From the NCBI GenBank assembly GCA_902609685.1, contig CACLSR010000001.1, positions 113,505 to 177,504 of the forward strand: 64,000 nt of DNA, written 5' to 3'. Below, piece after piece: positions 51,323 to 61,530 of the stretch (the first letter of the stretch is position 1; each line of letters begins with the position of its first letter). The notes beneath the pieces were generated by a model, which was given only the letters and a program-made list of their open reading frames with translations, ran no database searches and was not told where the DNA came from. The translations under genes and the position numbers were made by a program. This DNA is from an uncultured Pelagibacteraceae bacterium (lineage in GTDB: Bacteria; Pseudomonadota; Alphaproteobacteria; Pelagibacterales; Pelagibacteraceae).

Positions 51323-52474
51323 ATGGGACTTCATTTTTCAAAAAAGGAATTTAGAACTAGGAAATCCAAAGTTTTAGATTCCATGAAAGATCAAAACATA
51401 GATGCTTTATTAATGTTTAGACAAGAGTCTATGTATTGGTTAACTGGTTATGACACATTTGGATATGTTTTCTTTCAAACTTTAATTTTAGATAAAAAAG
51501 GAAACACTATATTACTAACTAGAGCTCCAGATTTAAGACAGGCACAAAATACATCCAATATTGAAGATATAAGAATTTGGGTTGATAAAGATGGATCGAA
51601 CCCAACCGATGATCTTAAAGTTATTTTGGATGACTTAAATCTTAAAGGAAAAAAATTAGGAATTGAATATGAGGCTTATGGATTGACCGGAAAAAATACA
51701 TTGAAGCTTAATAGGTCCTTAGAAAATTATTGTTCTGTTGAAGATAAATCAGACTTAATAACAAAGTTAAGAGTAGTGAAATCCAAAGAGGAAATTGTTT
51801 ATGTAAAAAAAGCTGCAGAACTGGCTGATCAAGCTTTGGATGAAGTTTGGAAATATGCCAAAGCGGGCGTGAATGAATCTAAGATTTTAGCTGAAATGAA
51901 TAAAGTTATATTTGAAGGCGGTGGAGATTATCCTGCAAATGAATTTATTATTGGTTCAGGAAAAAATGCTCTTCTTTGCCGTTATCAATCAGAAAAACAA
52001 ACTTTAAATGATCAAGATCAATTAACTATAGAATGGGCTGGTACTTATAGACATTACCATTCAGCAATGTTTAGAACAATACCTATAGGTAAAGCAGACC
52101 CTAAACATCATAAAATGCATGAGGCGTGTGTTGAAGCGTTAAAGAATTGTGAAAATAAATTAAAACCTGGAAATAAAATTGGAGAGGTTTTTGATATTCA
52201 CGCAAAAACTTTTGATGATCTTGGTTTTAATAAAGCAAGAATGAATGCATGTGGATATTCTTTAGGTACTACTTTCGCTCCAAATTGGATGGATTGGCCA
52301 ATGTTATATACTGGAAATCCATATGTGATTGAACCTGGAAATGTTTTTTTTATGCATATGATTTTAATGGACTCAGAAAATCAATTAGCAATGAACCTAG
52401 GTGAAACTTATTTAGTCACTGAACAAGGTAACGAAAGACTTGGTAAACAAAAAATTGATTTAGTTGTGCTTTAA
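51323..52474 (+). CDS. M24-fold hydrolase with lost metal ligands (ectoine hydrolase-like)
   Basis: 383 residues: creatinase-like N-terminal domain (to about 150), then a pita-bread domain. Compared with true M24 peptidases the metal site is broken: the expected DxG...D region reads IEWAGTYRHYHSAMFRT, the GHGIG His is Tyr (CGYSLGTTFAPNW), and the TIEPG Glu is His (VFFMHMIL). The GYSLGTTFAP pattern resembles ectoine hydrolases (DoeA/EutD). It probably hydrolyses a cyclic or amide compound without dinuclear metal. DddP-type DMSP lyase is less likely. It converges on the ABC permease with a 4-bp overlap. Confidence 0.75.
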   Translation: MGLHFSKKEFRTRKSKVLDSMKDQNIDALLMFRQESMYWLTGYDTFGYVFFQTLILDKKGNTILLTRAPDLRQAQNTSNIEDIRIWVDKDGSNPTDDLKVILDDLNLKGKKLGIEYEAYGLTGKNTLKLNRSLENYCSVEDKSDLITKLRVVKSKEEIVYVKKAAELADQALDEVWKYAKAGVNESKILAEMNKVIFEGGGDYPANEFIIGSGKNALLCRYQSEKQTLNDQDQLTIEWAGTYRHYHSAMFRTIPIGKADPKHHKMHEACVEALKNCENKLKPGNKIGEVFDIHAKTFDDLGFNKARMNACGYSLGTTFAPNWMDWPMLYTGNPYVIEPGNVFFMHMILMDSENQLAMNLGETYLVTEQGNERLGKQKIDLVVL

Positions 52475-53145
52475 TTAAAGCTGTATTTCTTTTCTAAAAA
52501 CTTAATCACATTATGAATTATAAAGGTCATAAATAAATAAATACCACCAGCAACAATAAATACCTCAATTGGTTTAAAAGTTGTTGAAATTATATATTTT
52601 GCAACACCTGTAAGGTCCATTATAGTAACAGTACTTGCTAAAGAAGTTCCTTTCATCATTAGGATAATCTCATTTCCATAAGCTGGTAAAGATTGTCTAA
52701 TAGCAATAGGAATTTGAATTTTATAAAAGATTACTTTACTTGAGATACCCAAACTTTTACCTGCCTCTATTATTCCAGGTTTAATAGTTTGAAATGCTGA
52801 TCTCAATATCTCTGAAGTGTAAGCACCCGTGTTTAGAGCAAAAGCAATAATTGCACACCAATATGGTTCTTTTAAAATTACCCATAAAACTGTCGATCTT
52901 AAATATTCAATCTGACCTAATCCAAAATATATAATGAATATCTGTACTAAAAGTGGTGTACCTCTAAAAACATACGAATATCCATATGCAAATCTATTGA
53001 TAAATATATTTTTATTTAATCTAAGAATTGCAAAAAATAAGCCAATGAATAATCCAATTATTAAAGAAACTGAAAGAAGTTTTAAAGTTATTACAGCAGC
53101 ATTTAGCAACTTTGGAAAACTATTAATCATTAATTCAAGATCCAT
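52471..53145 (-). CDS. Amino acid ABC transporter permease (HisM/ArtM type)
   Basis: 224 residues, about five helices, with FRGTPLLVQIFIIYFGL and the cytoplasmic EAA loop EAGKSLGISSKVIFYKIQIP. Polar amino acid permease of the HAAT class, paired with the upstream permease. The start overlaps that gene by 1 bp. The gene is last in the operon, and no ATPase gene follows. Confidence 0.9.
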   Translation of the reverse strand: MDLELMINSFPKLLNAAVITLKLLSVSLIIGLFIGLFFAILRLNKNIFINRFAYGYSYVFRGTPLLVQIFIIYFGLGQIEYLRSTVLWVILKEPYWCAIIAFALNTGAYTSEILRSAFQTIKPGIIEAGKSLGISSKVIFYKIQIPIAIRQSLPAYGNEIILMMKGTSLASTVTIMDLTGVAKYIISTTFKPIEVFIVAGGIYLFMTFIIHNVIKFLEKKYSFN

Positions 53146-53837
53146 TAGTAACCCCTACTATATTTAACTTCTAATCTGTTAATTAATTTCATGCTCACAA
53201 AAGTAAGTAGTAAATACAAAACTGCAGCAAATGAATAAAAGAATAATGGATCTCTCGTTGATCCAGCAGCTATATAAGATTGTCTCATGATTTCAACTAA
53301 ACCTGTAACTGAAATTAGAGAAGTGTCTTTTAGAGTTATCTGCCAAACATTACTTAGATTTGGAATAGCTAATCTTAATGTTTGAGGAAAAATAATTTTA
53401 AAAAATTTTCCAAATTTATTTAAACCTAATACATTGGCAGCCTCGAACTGGCCTTTATCAATTGATTGAATTGCTCCCCTAAAAACTTCAGTTGAATAAG
53501 CACCAGAAATTATTCCAATTGCAAATGCACCTGTGATAAATGCATTTATTTCAATATACTCATTATAACCAAATATTGATGCAACAAACATAACTGCACC
53601 AGTTCCACCAAAAAAGAAAAGGTAAATTACTAATAATTCTGGAACACCTCTTATTATAGTTGTGTAAGAATTAGCTATGAAATTTAAAAATTTATTTTTA
53701 GATAATTTTAATGGAGTAAAGATTAACGCAAAAAGAAAACCTATAATCATTGCTGTAATTGAAACAGCTATAGTCATTAGAGTGGCACGAAATAACTCGT
53801 CACCCCAACCAGTATCTCCAAATGCGAGAAGTTCCAT
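53145..53837 (-). CDS. Amino acid ABC transporter permease (HisQ/ArtQ type)
   Basis: 230 residues, five helices, with TTIIRGVPELLVIYLFFFGG, STEVFRGAIQSIDKGQFEAANVLGLNKFGKFFKIIFPQ (EAA loop) and SLISVTGLVEIMRQS. It forms the channel with the next gene. Its ATG lies 5 nt after a 12-bp hairpin (53843-53869) and there is no standard SD, so expression relative to the binding protein is probably low. Confidence 0.9.
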   Translation of the reverse strand: MELLAFGDTGWGDELFRATLMTIAVSITAMIIGFLFALIFTPLKLSKNKFLNFIANSYTTIIRGVPELLVIYLFFFGGTGAVMFVASIFGYNEYIEINAFITGAFAIGIISGAYSTEVFRGAIQSIDKGQFEAANVLGLNKFGKFFKIIFPQTLRLAIPNLSNVWQITLKDTSLISVTGLVEIMRQSYIAAGSTRDPLFFYSFAAVLYLLLTFVSMKLINRLEVKYSRGY

Positions 53838-53842
53838 ATAGA

Positions 53843-53869
53843 TTGGCGACTATACATTATAGTCGCCAA
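53843..53869 (-). repeat. Perfect 12-bp hairpin between ABC binding protein and permease genes
   Basis: TTGGCGACTATA / TATAGTCGCCAA with a 3-nt loop, just before the permease ATG and 13 bp after the binding-protein stop. No T-run follows on the minus strand, so it looks more like an mRNA-stabilising or translation-limiting stem than a terminator. Confidence 0.8.
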
Positions 53870-53881
53870 ATCTAAAATTAA

Positions 53882-54712
53882 TTACATAGAGGCATCAAAA
53901 CCAAACCATTTAGTAGCTATTCTACTAATGTCTCCGTTTTTTCTAGCCTTCTCGATTGCTTTGTTAAATGCTTTTAATAATTCAGTGTCGTCTTTTCTAA
54001 TTCCAACTCCAACACCATTACCAAATGCTCCACCTGAAAAAGTTGGACCTACAAGAACAACTGGTTTACCAGATTTCTCAGCATAATCTGTAAAAGCAAC
54101 TGCAGCTGCTAATGCAACATCGCATCTTCCTGATGCTAAGTCTAAGTTGACTTCATCTTGTGTTTTGTAAGTTCTTAGATTTATTTTTCCTACGTCACCA
54201 GACTCTAAAAAGTTTTGGTGAATAGTTGCTGTTTGTGTACAAACAGTTTTACCAGCAAGAGCACCCGTTAAAGTTTTTAAAGTTTTTTTAACACCTGAAC
54301 CACCTAAAGTAAGATTGATTCCTTCAGGAGTATCCATACCTTCAAGGTCAGAACCTTTCATAACTGCTAAAGATGCAACTTCATCTGCATAACCTTGTGA
54401 AAAGCTAATAGCTTTCTGTCTTTCAGCAGTAATAGACATACCTGCCATAATTGCATCAAATTTTCTCATAATTAAAGCTGGTATCATTCCATCCCAATCT
54501 TGTTCAACAATCTCACATTGTTGTCCAATATATCTGCAAAGTGTGTAAGCTAATTCAACTTCAAATCCGATTAATTTACCTGATGCATCTTTAGAATTCC
54601 ATGGAGGATAAGCGCCTTCTGTTCCAATTTTAATTTTGTCAGCATTAACATTTCCAATAATTAACAATGAAAACAAAACTGAAAAAATAATTTTTTTAAA
54701 TTTATTCATCAT
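53882..54712 (-). CDS. Basic amino acid ABC transporter substrate-binding protein
   Basis: 276 residues. Signal peptide to about residue 24 (IIGNVNA), then IKIGTEGAYPPWNSKDASGKLIGFEVELAYTLC, DWDGMIPALIMRKFDAIMAGMSITAERQK and a C-terminal ISRIATKWFGFD, the pattern of lysine/arginine/ornithine-type binding proteins (ArgT/AotJ/HisJ). SD AAAGGAGAG precedes the ATG. It lies downstream of speDE on the same strand (58 bp), so it may be part of the polyamine transcript. Confidence 0.9.
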   Translation of the reverse strand: MMNKFKKIIFSVLFSLLIIGNVNADKIKIGTEGAYPPWNSKDASGKLIGFEVELAYTLCRYIGQQCEIVEQDWDGMIPALIMRKFDAIMAGMSITAERQKAISFSQGYADEVASLAVMKGSDLEGMDTPEGINLTLGGSGVKKTLKTLTGALAGKTVCTQTATIHQNFLESGDVGKINLRTYKTQDEVNLDLASGRCDVALAAAVAFTDYAEKSGKPVVLVGPTFSGGAFGNGVGVGIRKDDTELLKAFNKAIEKARKNGDISRIATKWFGFDASM

Positions 54713-54770
54713 TCTCTCCTTTAATAAAAAAAATATTATTTCACAAATCAGAGACTTTAAAAAGAAAAAA

Positions 54771-55811
54771 CTAATGATTTATTGAAGACGAGAAATTCCA
54801 AGAACAATCAAAACTAGGTACATAAACCCTAGATAATTTGGTATTTCCAAAATGATGGTGAAAAACATTCATCCAATTTTCAACTTGAAGAGGTTTTTTA
54901 TCTTGGCTGCCAACTTGTGCTGTGATCACACCCTTTGGTTTTAATATTCTTACTAATGAGTCCATATTTTTTGCAGCCAAATCTATACAAAACTGATCAT
55001 CATTTAAATCTACAAAGATATGATCGTATGTATCATCTTTTACTGATTTAATACTATGAAACGCATCTCCCCAAACACATTTAACTGAATTTTTCTCTGT
55101 AGCTTTTTTTCCAATGTCCCCTAAATGTTTGTTACAAACTTCAACTACTTCTGGATCAAGCTCATACCAATCGATAAAATTAAATTTTTTAGATATACAC
55201 TCTCTAGCAACACCTCCATCACCACCACCAATGATTGCAGCTCTTTCATTATTTTTATTTAACTTCAATCCGGCACCTACAAACGTTGAGCTGTACAAAT
55301 GTTCATCAGACTCAGCTACTTGAATTTCACCATCAATAAATAATGATTTACCAAATTGCTCTAACTCTAAAATTTCGATGTGTTGACCCACCTTTGATTT
55401 AAAATCTTCCAAAACTTCATTTACAACATATGATTTTTGTAAACCTGGTGAGCTGTAAATATCGTGATAAAGAGATCTCGTATCTCTATTAAACTCTTTT
55501 TTTACAATTCTTTTGTGCTTAAATTCTTTTTTAACAATATCAACCGCTACTGAGGGACTGATTTTTCCACATGTAAAGAAGTCAAAACTTATAATTCCTT
55601 TCTCGGGAAATGTATGAAAACTGATATGACTTTCAGCTAATAATGCAAGAATTGTAAAGCCCTGTGGTTCAAACTTATATTTTGATATATTTAAGATTGT
55701 AACTTTAGCTACTTTAGCAATCTCTTTGATAACTCTTTCATAAACTGATGGATCATATTCTTTATCAGTACCAATTATATCTAAAGTAATGTGCTCCCCT
55801 ACTTTTATCAT
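54771..55811 (-). CDS. Fused S-adenosylmethionine decarboxylase-spermidine synthase (SpeD-SpeE)
   Basis: 346 residues, two domains. Residues 1-115 are prokaryotic AdoMet decarboxylase: LLAESHISFHTFPEKG with the self-cleavage site Glu60-Ser61 (pyruvoyl-forming), His66, and Cys81 in FFTCG. Residues about 140-340 are an aminopropyltransferase with SLFIDGEIQVAESDEHLY, IIGGGDGGVARE (195-204), YELDPEVVEVC and VDLNDD in place of the usual DxTDP. It should make decarboxylated AdoMet and spermidine, releasing methylthioadenosine. Decarboxylation of ornithine or arginine by SpeD is an alternative. It is 1 bp from the aldolase gene. Confidence 0.9.
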   Translation of the reverse strand: MIKVGEHITLDIIGTDKEYDPSVYERVIKEIAKVAKVTILNISKYKFEPQGFTILALLAESHISFHTFPEKGIISFDFFTCGKISPSVAVDIVKKEFKHKRIVKKEFNRDTRSLYHDIYSSPGLQKSYVVNEVLEDFKSKVGQHIEILELEQFGKSLFIDGEIQVAESDEHLYSSTFVGAGLKLNKNNERAAIIGGGDGGVARECISKKFNFIDWYELDPEVVEVCNKHLGDIGKKATEKNSVKCVWGDAFHSIKSVKDDTYDHIFVDLNDDQFCIDLAAKNMDSLVRILKPKGVITAQVGSQDKKPLQVENWMNVFHHHFGNTKLSRVYVPSFDCSWNFSSSINH

Positions 55812-55812
55812 A

Positions 55813-56469
55813 TTACCCTTTTTTATAATCTTTAGCTTTTTCCAAAACTTTATTCATTTCTTCTAATGAAAGAATTTTTGGGTCTCCTAACTTTAGTGCA
55901 ATAGTGTATTGATGACAAATATTTTCTATCTCTTGTGCTAGTTCAAATGCTTGGTCTAAATTTTTTCCAAAAGCAACCTGTCCGTGATTAGACATCAAAC
56001 AAGCACTTCTATTTTCTAAAGCTTTAATTACATTTTGTGAGAGTTCTTTTGTCCCAAAAGTAGCATATTTAGCACATTTAATGTCTTCTCCTCCTGCAAG
56101 AGCAATCATGTAATGAAACGGAGGTATAGATTTTCCGTGTGAAGATACAGCTGTTGCGTGTGGAGAATGTGCATGAACAATTGCATGAGCATCTTTTTTA
56201 TTAACATAAATATCTCTATGAAATCTCCATTCGGAGGAGGGTTTGTTCACTGAGTCGTTATTTTCTGCTTCTTCATTTAAACCCATAAAAACAATATCTT
56301 CTGGCTTTAAAGTTTCATATTTTTTTCCTGACGGAGTAATCAAATAACCTTGAATATTATCTTGTTCTGCTCTCAAAGATATATTTCCTGATCGTAGCGG
56401 TGAAAGATTTGTAGAGTTCAATTTAAGAGAATGCTCAATAATTTGATTTCTTTGGTCTAAATTCCTCAT
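55813..56469 (-). CDS. Class II aldolase, FucA-like; probable Ald2 of the DHAP shunt
   Basis: 218 residues, very close to FucA: KPSSEWRFH, HYMIALAGGEDIKCAKYATF and GTKELSQNVI. Catalytic Glu80 and zinc ligands His99, His101 and His162 match FucA Glu73, His92, His94 and His155 with a constant offset of seven. Beside mtnA and mtnP, in the order known from Rhodospirillum rubrum, it probably cleaves methylthioribulose-1-P (and deoxyribulose-1-P) to DHAP and (methylthio)acetaldehyde. The MtnB dehydratase role is less likely, as no mtnC, mtnD or mtnK is nearby. It overlaps mtnA by 4 bp. Confidence 0.82.
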   Translation of the reverse strand: MRNLDQRNQIIEHSLKLNSTNLSPLRSGNISLRAEQDNIQGYLITPSGKKYETLKPEDIVFMGLNEEAENNDSVNKPSSEWRFHRDIYVNKKDAHAIVHAHSPHATAVSSHGKSIPPFHYMIALAGGEDIKCAKYATFGTKELSQNVIKALENRSACLMSNHGQVAFGKNLDQAFELAQEIENICHQYTIALKLGDPKILSLEEMNKVLEKAKDYKKG

Positions 56470-57536
56470 TTAAATAACTCTTTTAGTCCTCTTTCTGATG
56501 CTTCACATATGCCTTTTTCGGTGATTAATCCTGTAACATATTTTGCCGGAGTTACATCAAAAGCCAAATTCATAGCTTTACTTTTTTTTGGATAAATTAG
56601 TATTTTTTTTACATTTCCTTTCCCATCTAAACCTTCCACATGAGATAATTCCTCTGAATTTCTCTCCTCAATTGGAATATCTTTATGGTCTTTTATATTC
56701 CAGTCAATTGTTGAACTTGGTAGTGCAACATAAAAAGGAATTTTATTATCATGAGCTGCTAGTGCTTTTAGATAAGTTCCAACTTTATTACAAACATCTC
56801 CATTTGCTAGAGTTCTGTCTGTTCCAACAATACACATATCAACCTCTCCTCTTTGCATCAAAATTCCACCTGTGTTATCTGCAATGATTGTATTTTTAAT
56901 TCCTTCTTCATTTAATTCATATGAAGTAAGATTTGCCCCTTGATTTCTTGGTCTAGTTTCATCTGCCCACACATGAACTGGGATACCTTTTTTGTGCGCA
57001 TGATAGATTGGAGAAGTTGCGGTTCCCCAATTTATTGTTGCAAGCCAACCTGCATTACAATGAGTTAATATATTAACTGTATCTTTTTTTTTATTATAAA
57101 TTTCCTCTATTATTTTAAGACCATTTAATCCTATATTTTCGCAAAATTTTATATCTTCTTCACATATATCTTTTGCTTCATTAAGAGCTATTTCTAAAAT
57201 TTTATCACTATTTAAACCTGATAATTTATTCATCATTCTATCAACAGCCCATTTTAAATTTATTGCTGTTGGTCTTGAGCTAATTAATTCATCTGCAGAT
57301 TTTTTCAAAAATGATTGATCATTATTTTCAATAATTGCCAAGACTAATCCATAAGCTGCTGTAGCACCTATCAAAGGTGCTCCTCTTACTTCCATTATTT
57401 TTATAGCATTAATTGCATCTTTAACTGACTTTAGATCCTTTATGACGAATTGATGTGGTAGTTTTGTTTGATCAATAATTTTTACAACATTATTTTCAAA
57501 CCAAATAGTACGATAATCTTTTCCTTCTATTCTCAT
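56466..57536 (-). CDS. mtnA: Methylthioribose-1-phosphate isomerase
   Basis: 356 residues, eIF2B-like isomerase. Catalytic Cys160 (ILTHCNAGWLAT) and Asp240 (IVGTDRTLANGD) fall at the same numbers as in B. subtilis MtnA, and MEVRGAPLIGATAAYG and TRPRNQGANLTSYEL are family motifs. It converts methylthioribose-1-P to methylthioribulose-1-P. It overlaps its neighbours by 4 bp on both sides, so mtnP, mtnA and the aldolase are one transcript. Confidence 0.96.
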   Translation of the reverse strand: MRIEGKDYRTIWFENNVVKIIDQTKLPHQFVIKDLKSVKDAINAIKIMEVRGAPLIGATAAYGLVLAIIENNDQSFLKKSADELISSRPTAINLKWAVDRMMNKLSGLNSDKILEIALNEAKDICEEDIKFCENIGLNGLKIIEEIYNKKKDTVNILTHCNAGWLATINWGTATSPIYHAHKKGIPVHVWADETRPRNQGANLTSYELNEEGIKNTIIADNTGGILMQRGEVDMCIVGTDRTLANGDVCNKVGTYLKALAAHDNKIPFYVALPSSTIDWNIKDHKDIPIEERNSEELSHVEGLDGKGNVKKILIYPKKSKAMNLAFDVTPAKYVTGLITEKGICEASERGLKELFK

Positions 57537-58405
57537 TTATTTAAAACTCTACCCGCAACTGTTTTAAGTTTATCTATAGTTTTTTTAGTTCGTTTTTCAG
57601 GTGAAGTAATAATAGCAACATCCAAACAATTGTTTGTTGGATCTTTAGGATCAATATGATTTTCAAAATTTTCTATTAAATTTTTAATCATATTTTTGGC
57701 TTTTGCAGCATTTCCTAAAAGAACTTTTATTACTTGTTGCACATCTACATTTTCATGATCTGGGTGCCAACAATCATAATCAGTTACCATTGAAACCGAT
57801 GCATACCTAATTTCTGCTTCTCTAGCTAATTTAGCCTCTGGCATATTTGTCATACCAATCACATCAGCTTTCCATGATCTATAAAGATTGGACTCAGCTA
57901 AAGTTGAAAATTGTGGCCCTTCCATTACTACATAGGTTCCACCTCTTTGATATTCTATTTTTTCTTTTTTAATAGCTTCTTCACACGCATTCATAAGACC
58001 ATTTGATGTTGGATGAGCCATAGAAACATGGGCAACGATTTCGTCATCAAAAAAAGTTTTATTTCTTGCGAAAGTTCTATCTATAAATTGATCAACAATT
58101 ACAAATTTACCTGGCGGTAAATCTTCTTTTAAAGATCCAACAGCTGATACAGAAACAATGTCAGAAACACCTAATTGTTTTAACGCATCAATATTAGCTC
58201 TAAAATTTATTTTTGAGGGTGAAATAAAATGCCCCCTTCCATGTCTTGGTAAAAAATAAACCTCTTTATTTTTATATTTTGTCTTTAAAATTTGATCTGA
58301 GGGTTTTCCCCAAGGAGTTTGTAAATCAACTAACTCTCGATTTTCAAATTCCTCAACATCATATAAACCGCTTCCACCAATGATTGCTAATTTATTTATT
58401 GTCAT
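57533..58405 (-). CDS. mtnP: Methylthioadenosine phosphorylase
   Basis: 290 residues. Phosphate loop IIGGSGLYDVEEF, FLPRHGRGHFISPSKINFRANI, VSAVGSLKEDLPPGKFV, and the substrate region IGMTNMPEAKLAREAEIRYA followed by VTDYDCWHP, specific for MTA phosphorylase. It splits methylthioadenosine to adenine and methylthioribose-1-P. First gene of the salvage/polyamine operon and divergent from apt, which reuses the adenine. Confidence 0.94.
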   Translation of the reverse strand: MTINKLAIIGGSGLYDVEEFENRELVDLQTPWGKPSDQILKTKYKNKEVYFLPRHGRGHFISPSKINFRANIDALKQLGVSDIVSVSAVGSLKEDLPPGKFVIVDQFIDRTFARNKTFFDDEIVAHVSMAHPTSNGLMNACEEAIKKEKIEYQRGGTYVVMEGPQFSTLAESNLYRSWKADVIGMTNMPEAKLAREAEIRYASVSMVTDYDCWHPDHENVDVQQVIKVLLGNAAKAKNMIKNLIENFENHIDPKDPTNNCLDVAIITSPEKRTKKTIDKLKTVAGRVLNK

Positions 58406-58432
58406 ATAAAAATTTTTAATTAATTATTAATA

Positions 58433-58438
58433 TATAAT
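58433..58438 (+). promoter_or_regulatory. -10 box of apt
   Basis: A perfect TATAAT ends 8 nt before the apt ATG at 58447, within the 41-bp divergent gap to mtnP. The leader would be one or two nucleotides at most. The -35 would overlap the mtnP start region and is not convincing. No SD. Confidence 0.45.
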
Positions 58439-58446
58439 TTAACCAT

Positions 58447-58974
58447 ATGAATTTAAAAGATTTTATTAGATCAATTCCAGATTATCCAAAAAAAGGGATA
58501 TTATTTCGAGATATAACAACACTAATTAAAAATGAAAAAGCATTTTCTGAAACAATAAACCAGATAGTTGAGAGGAGTAAAAAAGTAAAATTCGATAAAA
58601 TTGCAGCTATTGAGTCAAGAGGCTTTGTTTTTGCTTCTGCTGTTTCATACATATTAAAAAAACCCTTTGTGATGCTTAGAAAGAAAAATAAATTACCAGC
58701 TGATGTTCACTCAATAGATTTTGAACTCGAATATGGTACCGCAACAATAGAGGTGCATAAAGACTCTATTGATGAAAATGATGAGGTTTTAATTATTGAT
58801 GATTTAATTGCAACTGGAGGGACGGCAGAAGCTGCAGCTAGGTTAGTTGAAATTTCTAAAGGAAAAGTTGCTGCTTTTATTTTTGTTATTAATTTATTTG
58901 ATCTCAGTGGTACGGACAAATTAATAAAAAAAGGTTATAAAGTTGAAAACCTTATTGATTTTCCGGGTCATTAA
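58447..58974 (+). CDS. apt: Adenine phosphoribosyltransferase
   Basis: 175 residues. N-terminal IRSIPDYPKKGILFRDIT, IAAIESRGFVFASAVSYIL, and the PRPP-binding loop VLIIDDLIATGGTAEAAARL. It converts adenine and PRPP to AMP. Divergent from mtnP, whose product is adenine, which makes a direct functional link. A methyltransferase gene follows after 2 bp. Confidence 0.96.
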   Translation: MNLKDFIRSIPDYPKKGILFRDITTLIKNEKAFSETINQIVERSKKVKFDKIAAIESRGFVFASAVSYILKKPFVMLRKKNKLPADVHSIDFELEYGTATIEVHKDSIDENDEVLIIDDLIATGGTAEAAARLVEISKGKVAAFIFVINLFDLSGTDKLIKKGYKVENLIDFPGH

Positions 58975-58976
58975 AA

Positions 58977-59654
58977 ATGGAAAAATTAAATAAAATTTCT
59001 AAAATATTTAATAAGATTTATTACAATCTTTTCGTTGAAAGTTTTAAGTGTAAACTTCATTACAATTTTCCACAAAATTATTATCGTTGGGATCTTATTG
59101 AATATTTGATTAACAAATATGATTATTCTGATTACTTAGAAATAGGTTGTGATCAAAATCAGTTATTTTCAAAAATTAAGATACAAAATAAAGTTGGTGT
59201 AGACCCAAGTAGTGGTGGGAATGTTAGAAAAACAAGTGATGAATTTTTTAAAGAAAATAAGAATAAATTTGACATCGTTTTTATCGACGGCCTTCATATT
59301 TATGATCAAGTAAAAAAAGATATTCTTAATTCAATAAATTGTTTAAAAGACAATGGTATTATCTTGGTTCATGATTGTATGCCCGACTGTTTAAGTAAAC
59401 AGGCCGTTCCTAGATATAGAATGATATGGAATGGTGATGTTTGGAAAGCAATAGTTGACTTAAGACAAAGAGAGGATTTAGAAATTTTTACATGTGAAAT
59501 GGATCAAGGTATAGGAATAATTAAAAAAAAGAAAAATACCTCGATCTTAGAAATAAAAAAACCAGCAAGAAATTTAAAATTTAAAGATTACTATGCTAAT
59601 TACAAAAATTTTCTTAGAGTAATAAGTGTAGAAGAATTAAAACAGAAATATTAA
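58977..59654 (+). CDS. Class I SAM-dependent methyltransferase (Methyltransf_24-like)
   Basis: 225 residues. SAM-binding DYLEIGCDQNQLFSKI, acidic strand VGVDPSSGGNVRKTS, DIVFIDGLHIYDQVKKDI and GIILVHDCMPD, as in methyltransferases of surface-sugar clusters. Substrate unknown; it lies beside an epimerase and a GT2 gene, so a sugar is a reasonable guess. It starts 2 bp after apt and ends with a 4-bp overlap on the convergent epimerase. Confidence 0.8.
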   Translation: MEKLNKISKIFNKIYYNLFVESFKCKLHYNFPQNYYRWDLIEYLINKYDYSDYLEIGCDQNQLFSKIKIQNKVGVDPSSGGNVRKTSDEFFKENKNKFDIVFIDGLHIYDQVKKDILNSINCLKDNGIILVHDCMPDCLSKQAVPRYRMIWNGDVWKAIVDLRQREDLEIFTCEMDQGIGIIKKKKNTSILEIKKPARNLKFKDYYANYKNFLRVISVEELKQKY

Positions 59655-60667
59655 ATTTCTTTATTTTTCCACGTATCTGGAGTTAAATCATTATCAATCT
59701 CAATAGTTAAACGATAATTGAAATCTTTGGGTCCTCTTTTTTTTATATAATCGTAAGTTTTTTTGACACCATCACTCAAACTCACTTTTGTCTCATAATT
59801 TAATAATTTTCTTGCTTTATCAGCGGAACAGGTAGCATGCTTTACCTCTCTTGGCCTGTCTTCTTTAAAAACCGCCTCAAGATTTGAACCAGTTATATTA
59901 GAACAAATTTCAACCACTTTATTTATAGTTACAAATTCTTCATCTGGTCCTATGTTAATTACCTGTTTATTTAAATTTTTTTGATCCAACATGGGAACTA
60001 AGCAGCTTAAACAATCGTCAATATATGAAAAGCATCGTTTTTGCTCACCATCACCATAAACTACTGGAGGTTTTCCTTGAAGCATTCTATTTAAAAATAT
60101 AGAGACCACATTTCTATATGGATCAGTGTAAATTTGTCTAGGACCTATTATATTATGAGGAACAGCAATTACCCACTCTATATTATTTAAATCACAAAGA
60201 TTCTTTAATACATCTTCAGCTGCCACTTTCGAAATACCATAGGGGTCGACGGGTTTAGGAGTCATATCTTCTGTAAAGGGTGTTTGTTGATCTCCATATC
60301 TTGCCATAGAGGAGCAAAAAATAATTCTTTTTACTTTTTCATTAACTGCTGCAGAAAAAATTGAGACTGAAGCAAGGTAATTATTTTTTGTAATTTCATA
60401 AGGTGAAAATACCGACAAACCCTCATGAGCTGTTGCTGCACAATGATAAACTATATCAATATTTTTCATTATTTTTTTTACTTTTGAAAAATCGCTACAA
60501 TCAAAATTATGAAACTCTATATCTTTATGTATATTATCTTCATAACCACCAATCATATTATCTACACCAACAACTTTATGACCAAGATCTAATAATTTTT
60601 CTGATAAATGTGAACCTAAAAAACCCGCTACACCAGTTACTAGAATATTGTATTTAGTTGTCATCAA
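59651..60667 (-). CDS. NAD-dependent nucleotide-sugar epimerase/dehydratase
   Basis: 338 residues, extended SDR. Rossmann loop VTGVAGFLGSHLSEKLLDLG at the N-terminus, YHCAATAHEG, IFCSSMARYGDQ (catalytic Ser), DPYGISKVAAED (YxxxK), and the C-terminal SYIDDCLSCLVPML and NIGPDEEFVTI. It probably converts a UDP-sugar (UDP-glucose or UDP-GlcNAc 4-epimerase-like) for surface glycans. The exact sugar cannot be told. A C-terminal tail of about 20 residues goes beyond the usual fold. Confidence 0.87.
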   Translation of the reverse strand: MMTTKYNILVTGVAGFLGSHLSEKLLDLGHKVVGVDNMIGGYEDNIHKDIEFHNFDCSDFSKVKKIMKNIDIVYHCAATAHEGLSVFSPYEITKNNYLASVSIFSAAVNEKVKRIIFCSSMARYGDQQTPFTEDMTPKPVDPYGISKVAAEDVLKNLCDLNNIEWVIAVPHNIIGPRQIYTDPYRNVVSIFLNRMLQGKPPVVYGDGEQKRCFSYIDDCLSCLVPMLDQKNLNKQVINIGPDEEFVTINKVVEICSNITGSNLEAVFKEDRPREVKHATCSADKARKLLNYETKVSLSDGVKKTYDYIKKRGPKDFNYRLTIEIDNDLTPDTWKNKEI

Positions 60668-60687
60668 AAATCTAAATTATTATACAT

Positions 60688-61530
60688 TTAAAGCTTAGGT
60701 CTATACCATGATTTTCTTAATAAAACAGAATTAATAATACCTGATAATCTATGTTTATAAATTTCACTTTTATCCTTTTGAAATGTTATCAAAAAAATTA
60801 TAAATTTTATCAAAGATGAAGATAATTTCGGTAGAATTTTTATCATTGCAGCTGAGTATCCATAATGTTTTTTGTGAAAATAGAATGTTGACCACATCCA
60901 GTGCCAATTTCTAGAAAGCTCCATGGGTTTCTCAATTTCTGAATTATGTGATGTACCACCTAAATGGCTTACTTTGATTGTGGGATCTATAAATATTTTT
61001 GAATTATTTTTTTTTAATCTTCTACATAAATCTATTTCTTCAAAATAAAGGAAAAAATTATCATCAAAAAAATTAATTTGCTTAAGATTTTTCATATTCA
61101 AAAACATTGCAAAACCTTTGACATTATCTACCTCTTTAATTTCTTTATCCTCATTAATATTAAAATTATTGTATTTTTCATTTTGAGATATAGGAGCGAT
61201 AATTCCAAAATCCCCCAAATTATTGATGCTTAAAAAAAATTTATTCACTGCATCATTATTTAAAGTCACATCAGGGTTTACTATTAAAGCATAACTAGTT
61301 TTAACCCTTGATAGACCTAGATTGTTTCCTGCTCCATACCCTAAATTTTCTTTTGACAAAATACATTCCACATTTTGATATTTAGAGTGAATTTCTTCCT
61401 TTAATTTTTCATCATTTGAATTTTCAATAACGATAATTTTAATACTTTTTTCAATTGACTCTATACAACTGAAAATTTTATCCCTGCTATAAAATGAAGT
61501 GATTATGACAGTTAAATCGAAAGTTTTCAT
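60688..61530 (-). CDS. Glycosyltransferase family 2
   Basis: 280 residues, GT-A fold: VIITSFYSRDKIFSCIESIE, LSKENLGYGAGNNLGLSRVK and SYALIVNPDVTLNN where the NPD is the DxD-type metal site, then FFLYFEEIDLCRRLKKN and VSHLGGTSH as in rhamnosyltransferase-like GT2 enzymes. It likely adds a deoxy sugar to a surface polymer. It is 20 bp downstream of nothing coding except the tRNA and 20 bp upstream of the epimerase. Confidence 0.88.
   Translation of the reverse strand: MKTFDLTVIITSFYSRDKIFSCIESIEKSIKIIVIENSNDEKLKEEIHSKYQNVECILSKENLGYGAGNNLGLSRVKTSYALIVNPDVTLNNDAVNKFFLSINNLGDFGIIAPISQNEKYNNFNINEDKEIKEVDNVKGFAMFLNMKNLKQINFFDDNFFLYFEEIDLCRRLKKNNSKIFIDPTIKVSHLGGTSHNSEIEKPMELSRNWHWMWSTFYFHKKHYGYSAAMIKILPKLSSSLIKFIIFLITFQKDKSEIYKHRLSGIINSVLLRKSWYRPKL

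Follow-up and report, generated by a model that had tools for sequence, protein, structure and literature searches.

Polyamine-linked methylthioadenosine salvage in SAR11 by a predicted dihydroxyacetone phosphate shunt with an exchangeable aldolase

We describe an operon for the salvage of methylthioadenosine (MTA) in a window of 64,000 nucleotides (positions 113,505 to 177,504 of contig CACLSR010000001.1, assembly GCA_902609685.1) from an uncultured SAR11 bacterium of the Pelagibacteraceae. The operon, mtnP-mtnA-ald2-speDE with apt divergent from it (54771-58974), is best read as passing MTA, the by-product of spermidine synthesis, into the dihydroxyacetone phosphate (DHAP) shunt, because the genome holds a single class II aldolase and neither mtnC nor mtnD was detected; judging from gene order, protein families and the comparison of relatives, we hold this reading to be probable by a wide measure. 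Comparison among genomes shows that the position of the aldolase gene behaves as a slot, filled in SAR11 and in other Alphaproteobacteria either by Ald2 or by an aldolase/dehydrogenase fusion protein, and almost never by both. We further propose, with a probability of about one half, an oxidative form of the DHAP shunt in Alphaproteobacteria, including SAR11, in which the fusion would turn methylthioribulose-1-phosphate (and 5-deoxyribulose-1-phosphate) into DHAP, NADH and (methylthio)acetate (or acetate), and in which fusion and Ald2 would have been exchanged many times at the one slot.

The four genes of the operon lie on the minus strand, and successive genes are joined by a 4-base overlap or a 1-base gap. 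mtnP (57533..58405, 290 residues), for methylthioadenosine phosphorylase, scores 448.5 bits against NF006492 (cut-off 437) and 315 bits against TIGR01694 (274.85), and mtnA (56466..57536, 356 residues), for methylthioribose-1-phosphate isomerase, scores 422 bits against TIGR00512 (cut-off 279). The third gene, ald2 (55813..56469), encodes a class II aldolase matching PF00596 at 173.7 bits, FucA-like as it had been called before any database search. speDE (54771..55811, 346 residues) encodes a fusion of S-adenosylmethionine decarboxylase and aminopropyltransferase, the presumed producer of MTA; its SpeD half passes TIGR03330 (101 bits, cut-off 75.65), and its SpeE half passes the Pfam models PF01564 and PF17284 and stays under the NCBIfam cut-offs for SpeE (best 124.5 bits against 260). 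It is very likely the SpeE gene fusion already reported for SAR11 in passages of PMC8437039, which cite earlier work. apt, for adenine phosphoribosyltransferase (58447..58974, plus strand, 175 residues; TIGR01090 199.3 bits, cut-off 185.85), is separated from the start of mtnP by an A+T-rich gap of 41 bases (58406..58446) that presumably holds a divergent promoter. The gene calls and families thus bear out the operon as it stood in the first-pass annotation, over the same span.

Profile searches of the genome that holds the window (1.19 Mb in 20 contigs, 96.85% complete) returned Ald2 as its sole Aldolase_II match. The universal methionine salvage pathway (MtnB, MtnC, MtnD) was not found in it: mtnD is absent from all 61 genomes of the comparison described below, this one included, and mtnC was not found in this genome with a strict model that passes its cut-off in only 1 of 14 controls. 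The first-pass annotation had proposed a polyamine-linked salvage of MTA that ends in an aldolase instead of MtnB, MtnC and MtnD, and had named mtnC and mtnD as the genes that might overturn it; the proposal survives that search. An MTA phosphorylase, MtnA and a clustered FucA-like aldolase with intact metal-binding and catalytic residues, by which a DHAP shunt is recognised, are all present, and mtnK is unnecessary given MtnP. The genome also encodes the O-acetylhomoserine sulfhydrylase of the DHAP-methanethiol shunt, MetY (the L285 protein, 575 bits against TIGR01326, cut-off 495.1), and a cystathionine beta-lyase-like protein at 333.7 bits, under its cut-off of 365.9; PF01053 has four matches in the genome, two of which were identified.

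The active site of Ald2 was compared with that of E. coli FucA (PDB), whose metal ligands we take to be E73, H92, H94 and H155 and whose tyrosines we take to be Y113 and Y209. The ligands correspond to E80, H99, H101 and H162 of Ald2 and Y113 corresponds to Y120, at a constant offset of 7, and Y209 corresponds to Y215 at an offset of 6. All six Ald2 residues are invariant in an alignment of nine sequences. We rejected FucA as the identity of Ald2 on its score, under all curated FucA cut-offs shown (best 195.8 bits against 264), together with the gene context.

The comparison set comprised 61 genomes, 37 from the same genus and 24 from another family of the order. mtnA was found in 29 of them, ald2 in 25 (rows at 63% identity or more, the remaining matches being paralogues at 22-30%) and the full-length fusion in 5. 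Among the 29 genomes with mtnA, 23 have ald2, 5 have the fusion, none has both and one (G031) has neither; the full-length fusion is confined to genomes with mtnA and without ald2, and occurs in five of the six such genomes. Two incomplete genomes, G001 and G005, have ald2 with mtnA not detected. The neighbourhood of ald2 is conserved beyond chance in the 24 relatives that carry it: speDE is adjacent in all 24, and flanks of 1.5 kb, some of them ended by contig ends, contain mtnA in 19 and a transporter binding-protein gene in 22; the recurrent order is apt, mtnP, mtnA, ald2, speDE, sbp3 and permeases, in some cases with inserts. Where the fusion occupies the slot its arrangement varies. It is a protein of 677 residues encoded on the other strand between mtnA and speDE in G013, G027 and G024, with two extra open reading frames (ORFs) separating it from mtnA in G024; in G023 it adjoins speDE and mtnA is 15 kb away; and in G041, from the other family, a homologue of 674 residues lies 3' of mtnP-mtnA on the same strand.

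The distribution of speDE bears on the link to polyamine synthesis. Within the genus it is present in 31 of 37 genomes, and 27 of those 31 also have mtnA. The genomes with speDE in which mtnA was not detected are G001, G005, G012 and G019; G031 shows the reverse, with mtnA present and speDE absent. None of the 24 genomes of the other family gave a full-length match to speDE, and mtnA occurs only in G041, where the mtnP-mtnA-fusion cluster stands without speDE and adjoins an agmatine-deiminase-like gene (PF04371, under the curated AguA cut-off).

Much larger numbers of fusion loci came from a species-genome scan. We took the best 80 of 510 confirmed loci, these 80 all titled Pelagibacteraceae or Pelagibacter and at least two of them from genomes already among the 61, and dropped hits below 45% identity for ald2, 60% for the fusion and 50% for the neighbours mt59 and epim. 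speDE lies beside the fusion in 78 of the 80, and the remaining two end at a contig end; the flanks hold the binding-protein gene in 75, both permeases in 75, mtnA in 68, mtnP in 62 and apt in 62. No ald2 was found in the flanks (up to 6 kb) of any of the 80, the search for it having covered those flanks. We built a speDE tree by a quick method from 103 rows (78 fusion, 25 ald2) out of 107 candidates, a few of the rows representing one genome under two locus ids (L087 and L172, for example); it requires 11 changes between fusion and ald2, at least 6 of them forced by well-supported branches, compared with 22.4 for shuffles. speDE might itself have been moved by recombination, but in that case too the two aldolases have replaced each other next to it.

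The fusion joins a class II aldolase to a short-chain dehydrogenase. Its matches to NF006192 reach 905, 874 and 796 bits (cut-off 639), and its matches to the RhaEW model TIGR02632 lie at 438-458 bits, under the cut-off of 567.75. We aligned 116 fusions, 80 from SAR11, 30 from the class and 6 from plasmids. The metal ligands E125, H139, H141 and H200 (numbering of L072, the fusion of AG-426-C20) and the dehydrogenase residues G437, G443, D461, N509, S562, Y575 and K579, to which we assign roles by presumption, are invariant in all 116. Because the active-site residues considered do not vary, both halves of the fusion should be functional.

The same division appears in a sample of 289 Alphaproteobacteria, drawn evenly across the class and including the genome of the window and two others of its family. 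Here a fusion was counted at E <= 1e-110, weaker rows were counted apart, and adjacency meant the same contig and the same strand. We found mtnA in 127 genomes, mtnD in 12, an ald2-like gene in 81, the fusion in 49 and only a weaker RhaEW-like gene in 8. The 127 genomes with mtnA divide into 71 with ald2 only, 43 with the fusion only, 2 with both and 11 with neither (Fisher p 5e-21, uncorrected for kinship), and in both of the genomes that carry the two aldolases ald2 is not adjacent to mtnA. The fusion co-occurs with mtnA in 45 of its 49 genomes (p 3e-14, kinship ignored), as against 1 of the 8 genomes with only a weaker RhaEW-like gene. By family, 37 of the 70 with mtnA have ald2 only, 17 the fusion only and 5 contain genomes of both states; the remaining 11 involve genomes with neither aldolase or both. 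No more than 400 bases separate the fusion from mtnA in 22 of 49 genomes, where it is always downstream, and no more than 5 kb in 26; for ald2 the 400-base limit takes in 53 of 81, and 48 of those 53 lie downstream of mtnA. mtnA or mtnP was seen at 18 of 30 fusion loci with 1.5 kb flanks, and at 13 of 20 with longer flanks (the 20 were drawn from the 49, and 19 of their genomes are also among the 30). At least one of the two aldolases is present in 116 of the 127 genomes with mtnA and mtnD in 10; Alphaproteobacteria with mtnA may therefore usually dispose of MTA by aldol cleavage and not by the textbook route.

Plasmids carry the fusion as well, and of 51 such records we inspected seven. In Ruegeria sp. 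AD91A mtnA is followed by the fusion. Ensifer sp. PDNC004, Mariluticola halotolerans and Pararhizobium qamdonense share a cluster of regulator, fusion, sugar ATP-binding cassette (ABC) transporter and mtnK-mtnA, and Agrobacterium sp. MA01 begins with the same genes as far as mtnK, at the edge of its stretch; the Gemmatirosa record carries no annotation, and the seventh, from Rhizobium etli, is taken up below. In the Rhizobiaceae and Devosiaceae plasmid loci (L255/L281, L256/L282 and L284) the run of fusion, sugar ABC transporter and mtnK-mtnA continues into split transketolase genes, and L281 and L282 also hold a gene for a RuBisCO-like protein, possibly a second sugar pathway. Relatives of Ald2 on plasmids were inspected in 2 of 167 records, and both stand in sugar-kinase clusters. 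In a 28-row Ald2 tree these two group with E. coli FucA and one class gene that is not near mtnA (92/83, not strong), and a second class gene not near mtnA is placed among the mtnA-linked rows; the deep forks of this tree are weak.

The predicted pathway begins with SpeDE, which would make MTA. MtnP would convert MTA into adenine and methylthioribose-1-phosphate, Apt would turn the released adenine into AMP, and MtnA would yield methylthioribulose-1-phosphate, which Ald2, to judge from its family and operon, would cleave into DHAP and 2-(methylthio)acetaldehyde. The fusion would catalyse the same cleavage and, like its relative RhaEW, would probably also oxidise the aldehyde with NAD+, pulling an unfavourable cleavage forward and shielding a reactive aldehyde; in genomes with ald2, a dehydrogenase or reductase encoded elsewhere would act on the aldehyde. 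The equilibrium of aldol cleavage for sugar phosphates of this kind is given as about 1e-4, strongly unfavourable (excerpts of PMC6079011), and coupling to oxidation would therefore be a reason for the fusion. RhaEW converts rhamnulose-1-phosphate into DHAP and lactate, requires NAD+ and showed no activity with NADH (excerpts of PMC3870299); it is on this ground that (methylthio)acetate is predicted as the product of the fusion. We infer oxidation as the direction of the step, though reduction is possible. If the oxidative route is real, sulfur recovery or release in these ocean bacteria would start from (methylthio)acetate instead of 2-(methylthio)ethanol. MetY could return the sulfur of methanethiol to methionine.

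Several observations weigh against the proposal. The nearest solved relative of Ald2 is E. coli FucA, at 167.5 bits, above the structure 6btd (138.4 bits), which we take to be the 5-deoxyribulose-1-phosphate aldolase DrdA; the shortfall of Ald2 against the curated FucA models also counts here, and NF006192, which the fusion passes, is a broad family. A member of NF006192 over the cut-off on Rhizobium etli p42a has no mtnA annotated within 5 kb, and in the class sample 4 of 49 fusion genomes have no mtnA and 11 of 127 mtnA genomes have neither aldolase, as is also true of G031 (1 of the 29 in the closer set). Seven of the 37 genus genomes have none of mtnA, ald2 and fusion; among them is G012, a single contig listed as 100% complete, in which speDE is present and the other three were not detected. 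The fusion is found in 6 of the 12 class genomes that carry mtnD and an ald2-like gene in 5, one genome having both, which speaks against a strict either-or between the aldolases and the textbook pathway. Finally, the product named for Rhodopseudomonas palustris in excerpts of PMC5893883 is an alcohol, 2-(methylthio)ethanol, which implies reduction, and the oxidative direction may be wrong.

Among other explanations, the one nearest in probability to our proposal, somewhat short of even odds, is that the shunt serves only detoxification and the recovery of carbon, the methylthio group being lost as 2-(methylthio)ethanol or methanethiol without being used again; up to the aldehyde it is compatible with the pathway above. 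The shunt of E. coli ATCC 25922 does not significantly recycle sulfur (excerpts of PMC10986504), and export of methanethiol by Pelagibacter is cited in parts of a review (PMC6302742); what speaks for recovery is MetY, which is over its cut-off in this genome and for which a role in capturing methanethiol has been proposed in R. palustris. It is unlikely, by comparison, that the pathway exists for 5'-deoxyadenosine produced by radical SAM enzymes, the aldolase cleaving 5-deoxyribulose-1-phosphate to DHAP and acetaldehyde and MTA being cut for its adenine only. DrdA of Bacillus thuringiensis performs this cleavage and prefers acetaldehyde (excerpts of PMC6079011), and the E. coli shunt prefers 5-deoxyribose. 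The paper that reports this preference, however, describes MtnA and Ald2 as acting on both substrates (PMC10986504), which makes exclusive use of the 5-deoxy compound doubtful, and the tight operon with speDE and the presence of mtnA in most genus genomes with speDE point to MTA.

Two further readings concern the identity of the proteins. The fusion might be RhaEW itself, serving rhamnose catabolism from a position unrelated to MTA; its architecture is identical and it matches TIGR02632. None of those matches reaches the cut-off, however, the full-length fusion is found in the 61 genomes only alongside mtnA and in place of ald2, and mtnA accompanies the class fusions and seldom the weaker RhaEW-like genes. 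We rejected RhaEW on score and context, the neighbours being mtnP, mtnA and speDE (rhamnose genes were not searched for), and regard the rhamnose reading as quite improbable. Least probable is that the third gene is an MtnB dehydratase feeding the universal pathway: MtnB belongs to the same superfamily and TIGR03328 does match Ald2, but at 66 bits, half of the cut-off of 137.05, and on this score and the failure to find mtnC and mtnD in the genome that identity too was rejected.

Against this background we return to the DHAP shunt and its published counterparts. The shunt of Rhodospirillum rubrum and R. palustris resembles the present one in its three enzymes and predicted steps, in its aerobic use and in its proposed recovery of methionine (excerpts of PMC5893883). 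In these excerpts R. palustris uses MtnP, MtnA and Ald2 aerobically, and a strain without rlp1, rlp2 and ald2 grows very poorly on MTA; methanethiol is released, and its capture by O-acetylhomoserine sulfhydrylase is proposed. An alcohol dehydrogenase is named there only as putative or presumed, and no enzymes are assigned to the steps beyond 2-(methylthio)ethanol. The first-pass annotation, which placed a DHAP shunt in an aerobe and supposed that an undescribed route to methanethiol or methionine may exist, was right up to the aldehyde; a route to methanethiol had already been put forward for R. palustris. What differs here is the setting, a SAR11 genome of 1.19 Mb in which a SpeD-SpeE fusion belongs to the operon of the shunt genes, and the replacement of Ald2 by the aldolase/dehydrogenase fusion in SAR11 relatives. 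The drdK-drdI-drdA cluster of B. thuringiensis likewise uses an isomerase and a class II aldolase to give DHAP and an aldehyde (excerpts of PMC6079011), but by a kinase route, and the window's Ald2 scores nearer to E. coli FucA. RhaEW shares the domain order and presumably the chemistry of the SAR11 fusion, and is stated in excerpts of PMC3870299 to occur always in rha loci, whereas the SAR11 fusion sits with mtnP, mtnA and speDE. The passages of PMC8437039 on the SpeE fusion make no mention of a link to MTA salvage.

An aerobic DHAP shunt and a methanethiol route are thus already published ideas, to which the window adds a SAR11 member. Searches of titles and abstract openings found no published account of the DHAP shunt in SAR11 and none of an aldolase/dehydrogenase fusion in MTA metabolism, though a 2020 Molecular Microbiology paper on the bifunctional shunt may say more; as far as these searches show, the shunt is new for SAR11. 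The exchangeable fusion, which the first-pass annotation missed, is what would surprise a specialist, and it offers the better clue to the following step. Comparative genomics, through the swap, puts forward a candidate for what happens after aldol cleavage; a role can also be suggested for a large protein family whose annotation goes no further than bifunctional aldolase/short-chain dehydrogenase. SAR11 cells are dominant in surface seawater and depend on an external supply of reduced sulfur, so that the fate of the methylthio group of MTA matters to sulfur in the ocean. Excretion of MTA has been reported for Prochlorococcus (excerpts of PMC11698098).

Around the operon, no Rfam match to an RNA switch was found in 52000-60800, and promoter and terminator signals at the operon did not rise above shuffled sequence (22 promoter-like sites against a mean of 27.7, and 3 terminator-like sites against 2.0). 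3' of speDE, on the same minus strand, lie a gene for the binding protein of an amino-acid-type ABC transporter (SBP_bac_3, 53882..54712; PF00497 130.7 bits) and ORFs for two permease-like proteins (53145-53837 and 52471-53145); no ATPase gene was seen beside them (52471-54712). All three genes are kept with speDE in 75 of the 80 fusion loci, and the binding-protein gene in 22 of the 24 ald2 loci. An ORF after apt (58977-59654), methyltransferase-like by eye, is matched in 2 of the 80 fusion loci.

In the relatives, the inserts between mtnP, mtnA and ald2 (an ORF of 65-67 residues, a GFA-domain protein and others) were considered for the missing step and rejected as too inconstant. The ORF of 65-67 residues, whose N-terminus is hydrophobic, separates mtnA from ald2 in L037 (10437-10634), L038 (2086-2283), L044 (9522-9725), L045 (5481-5684) and L046 (from 9949); the L037 and L044 copies have no NCBIfam match and the L044 copy no Pfam match. 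An ORF of 260-261 residues, presumably similar to beta-keto acid cleavage enzymes, adjoins ald2 or the fusion in some genomes (L048 10604-11389, L051 from 4244, L087 712-1494). Another, of 527 residues, is found 3' of mtnA or a few genes away (L076 10169-11752, L078 from 994, L073 7627-9210) in genomes where mtnA does not adjoin speDE; the copy in L076 belongs to the sulfatase family.

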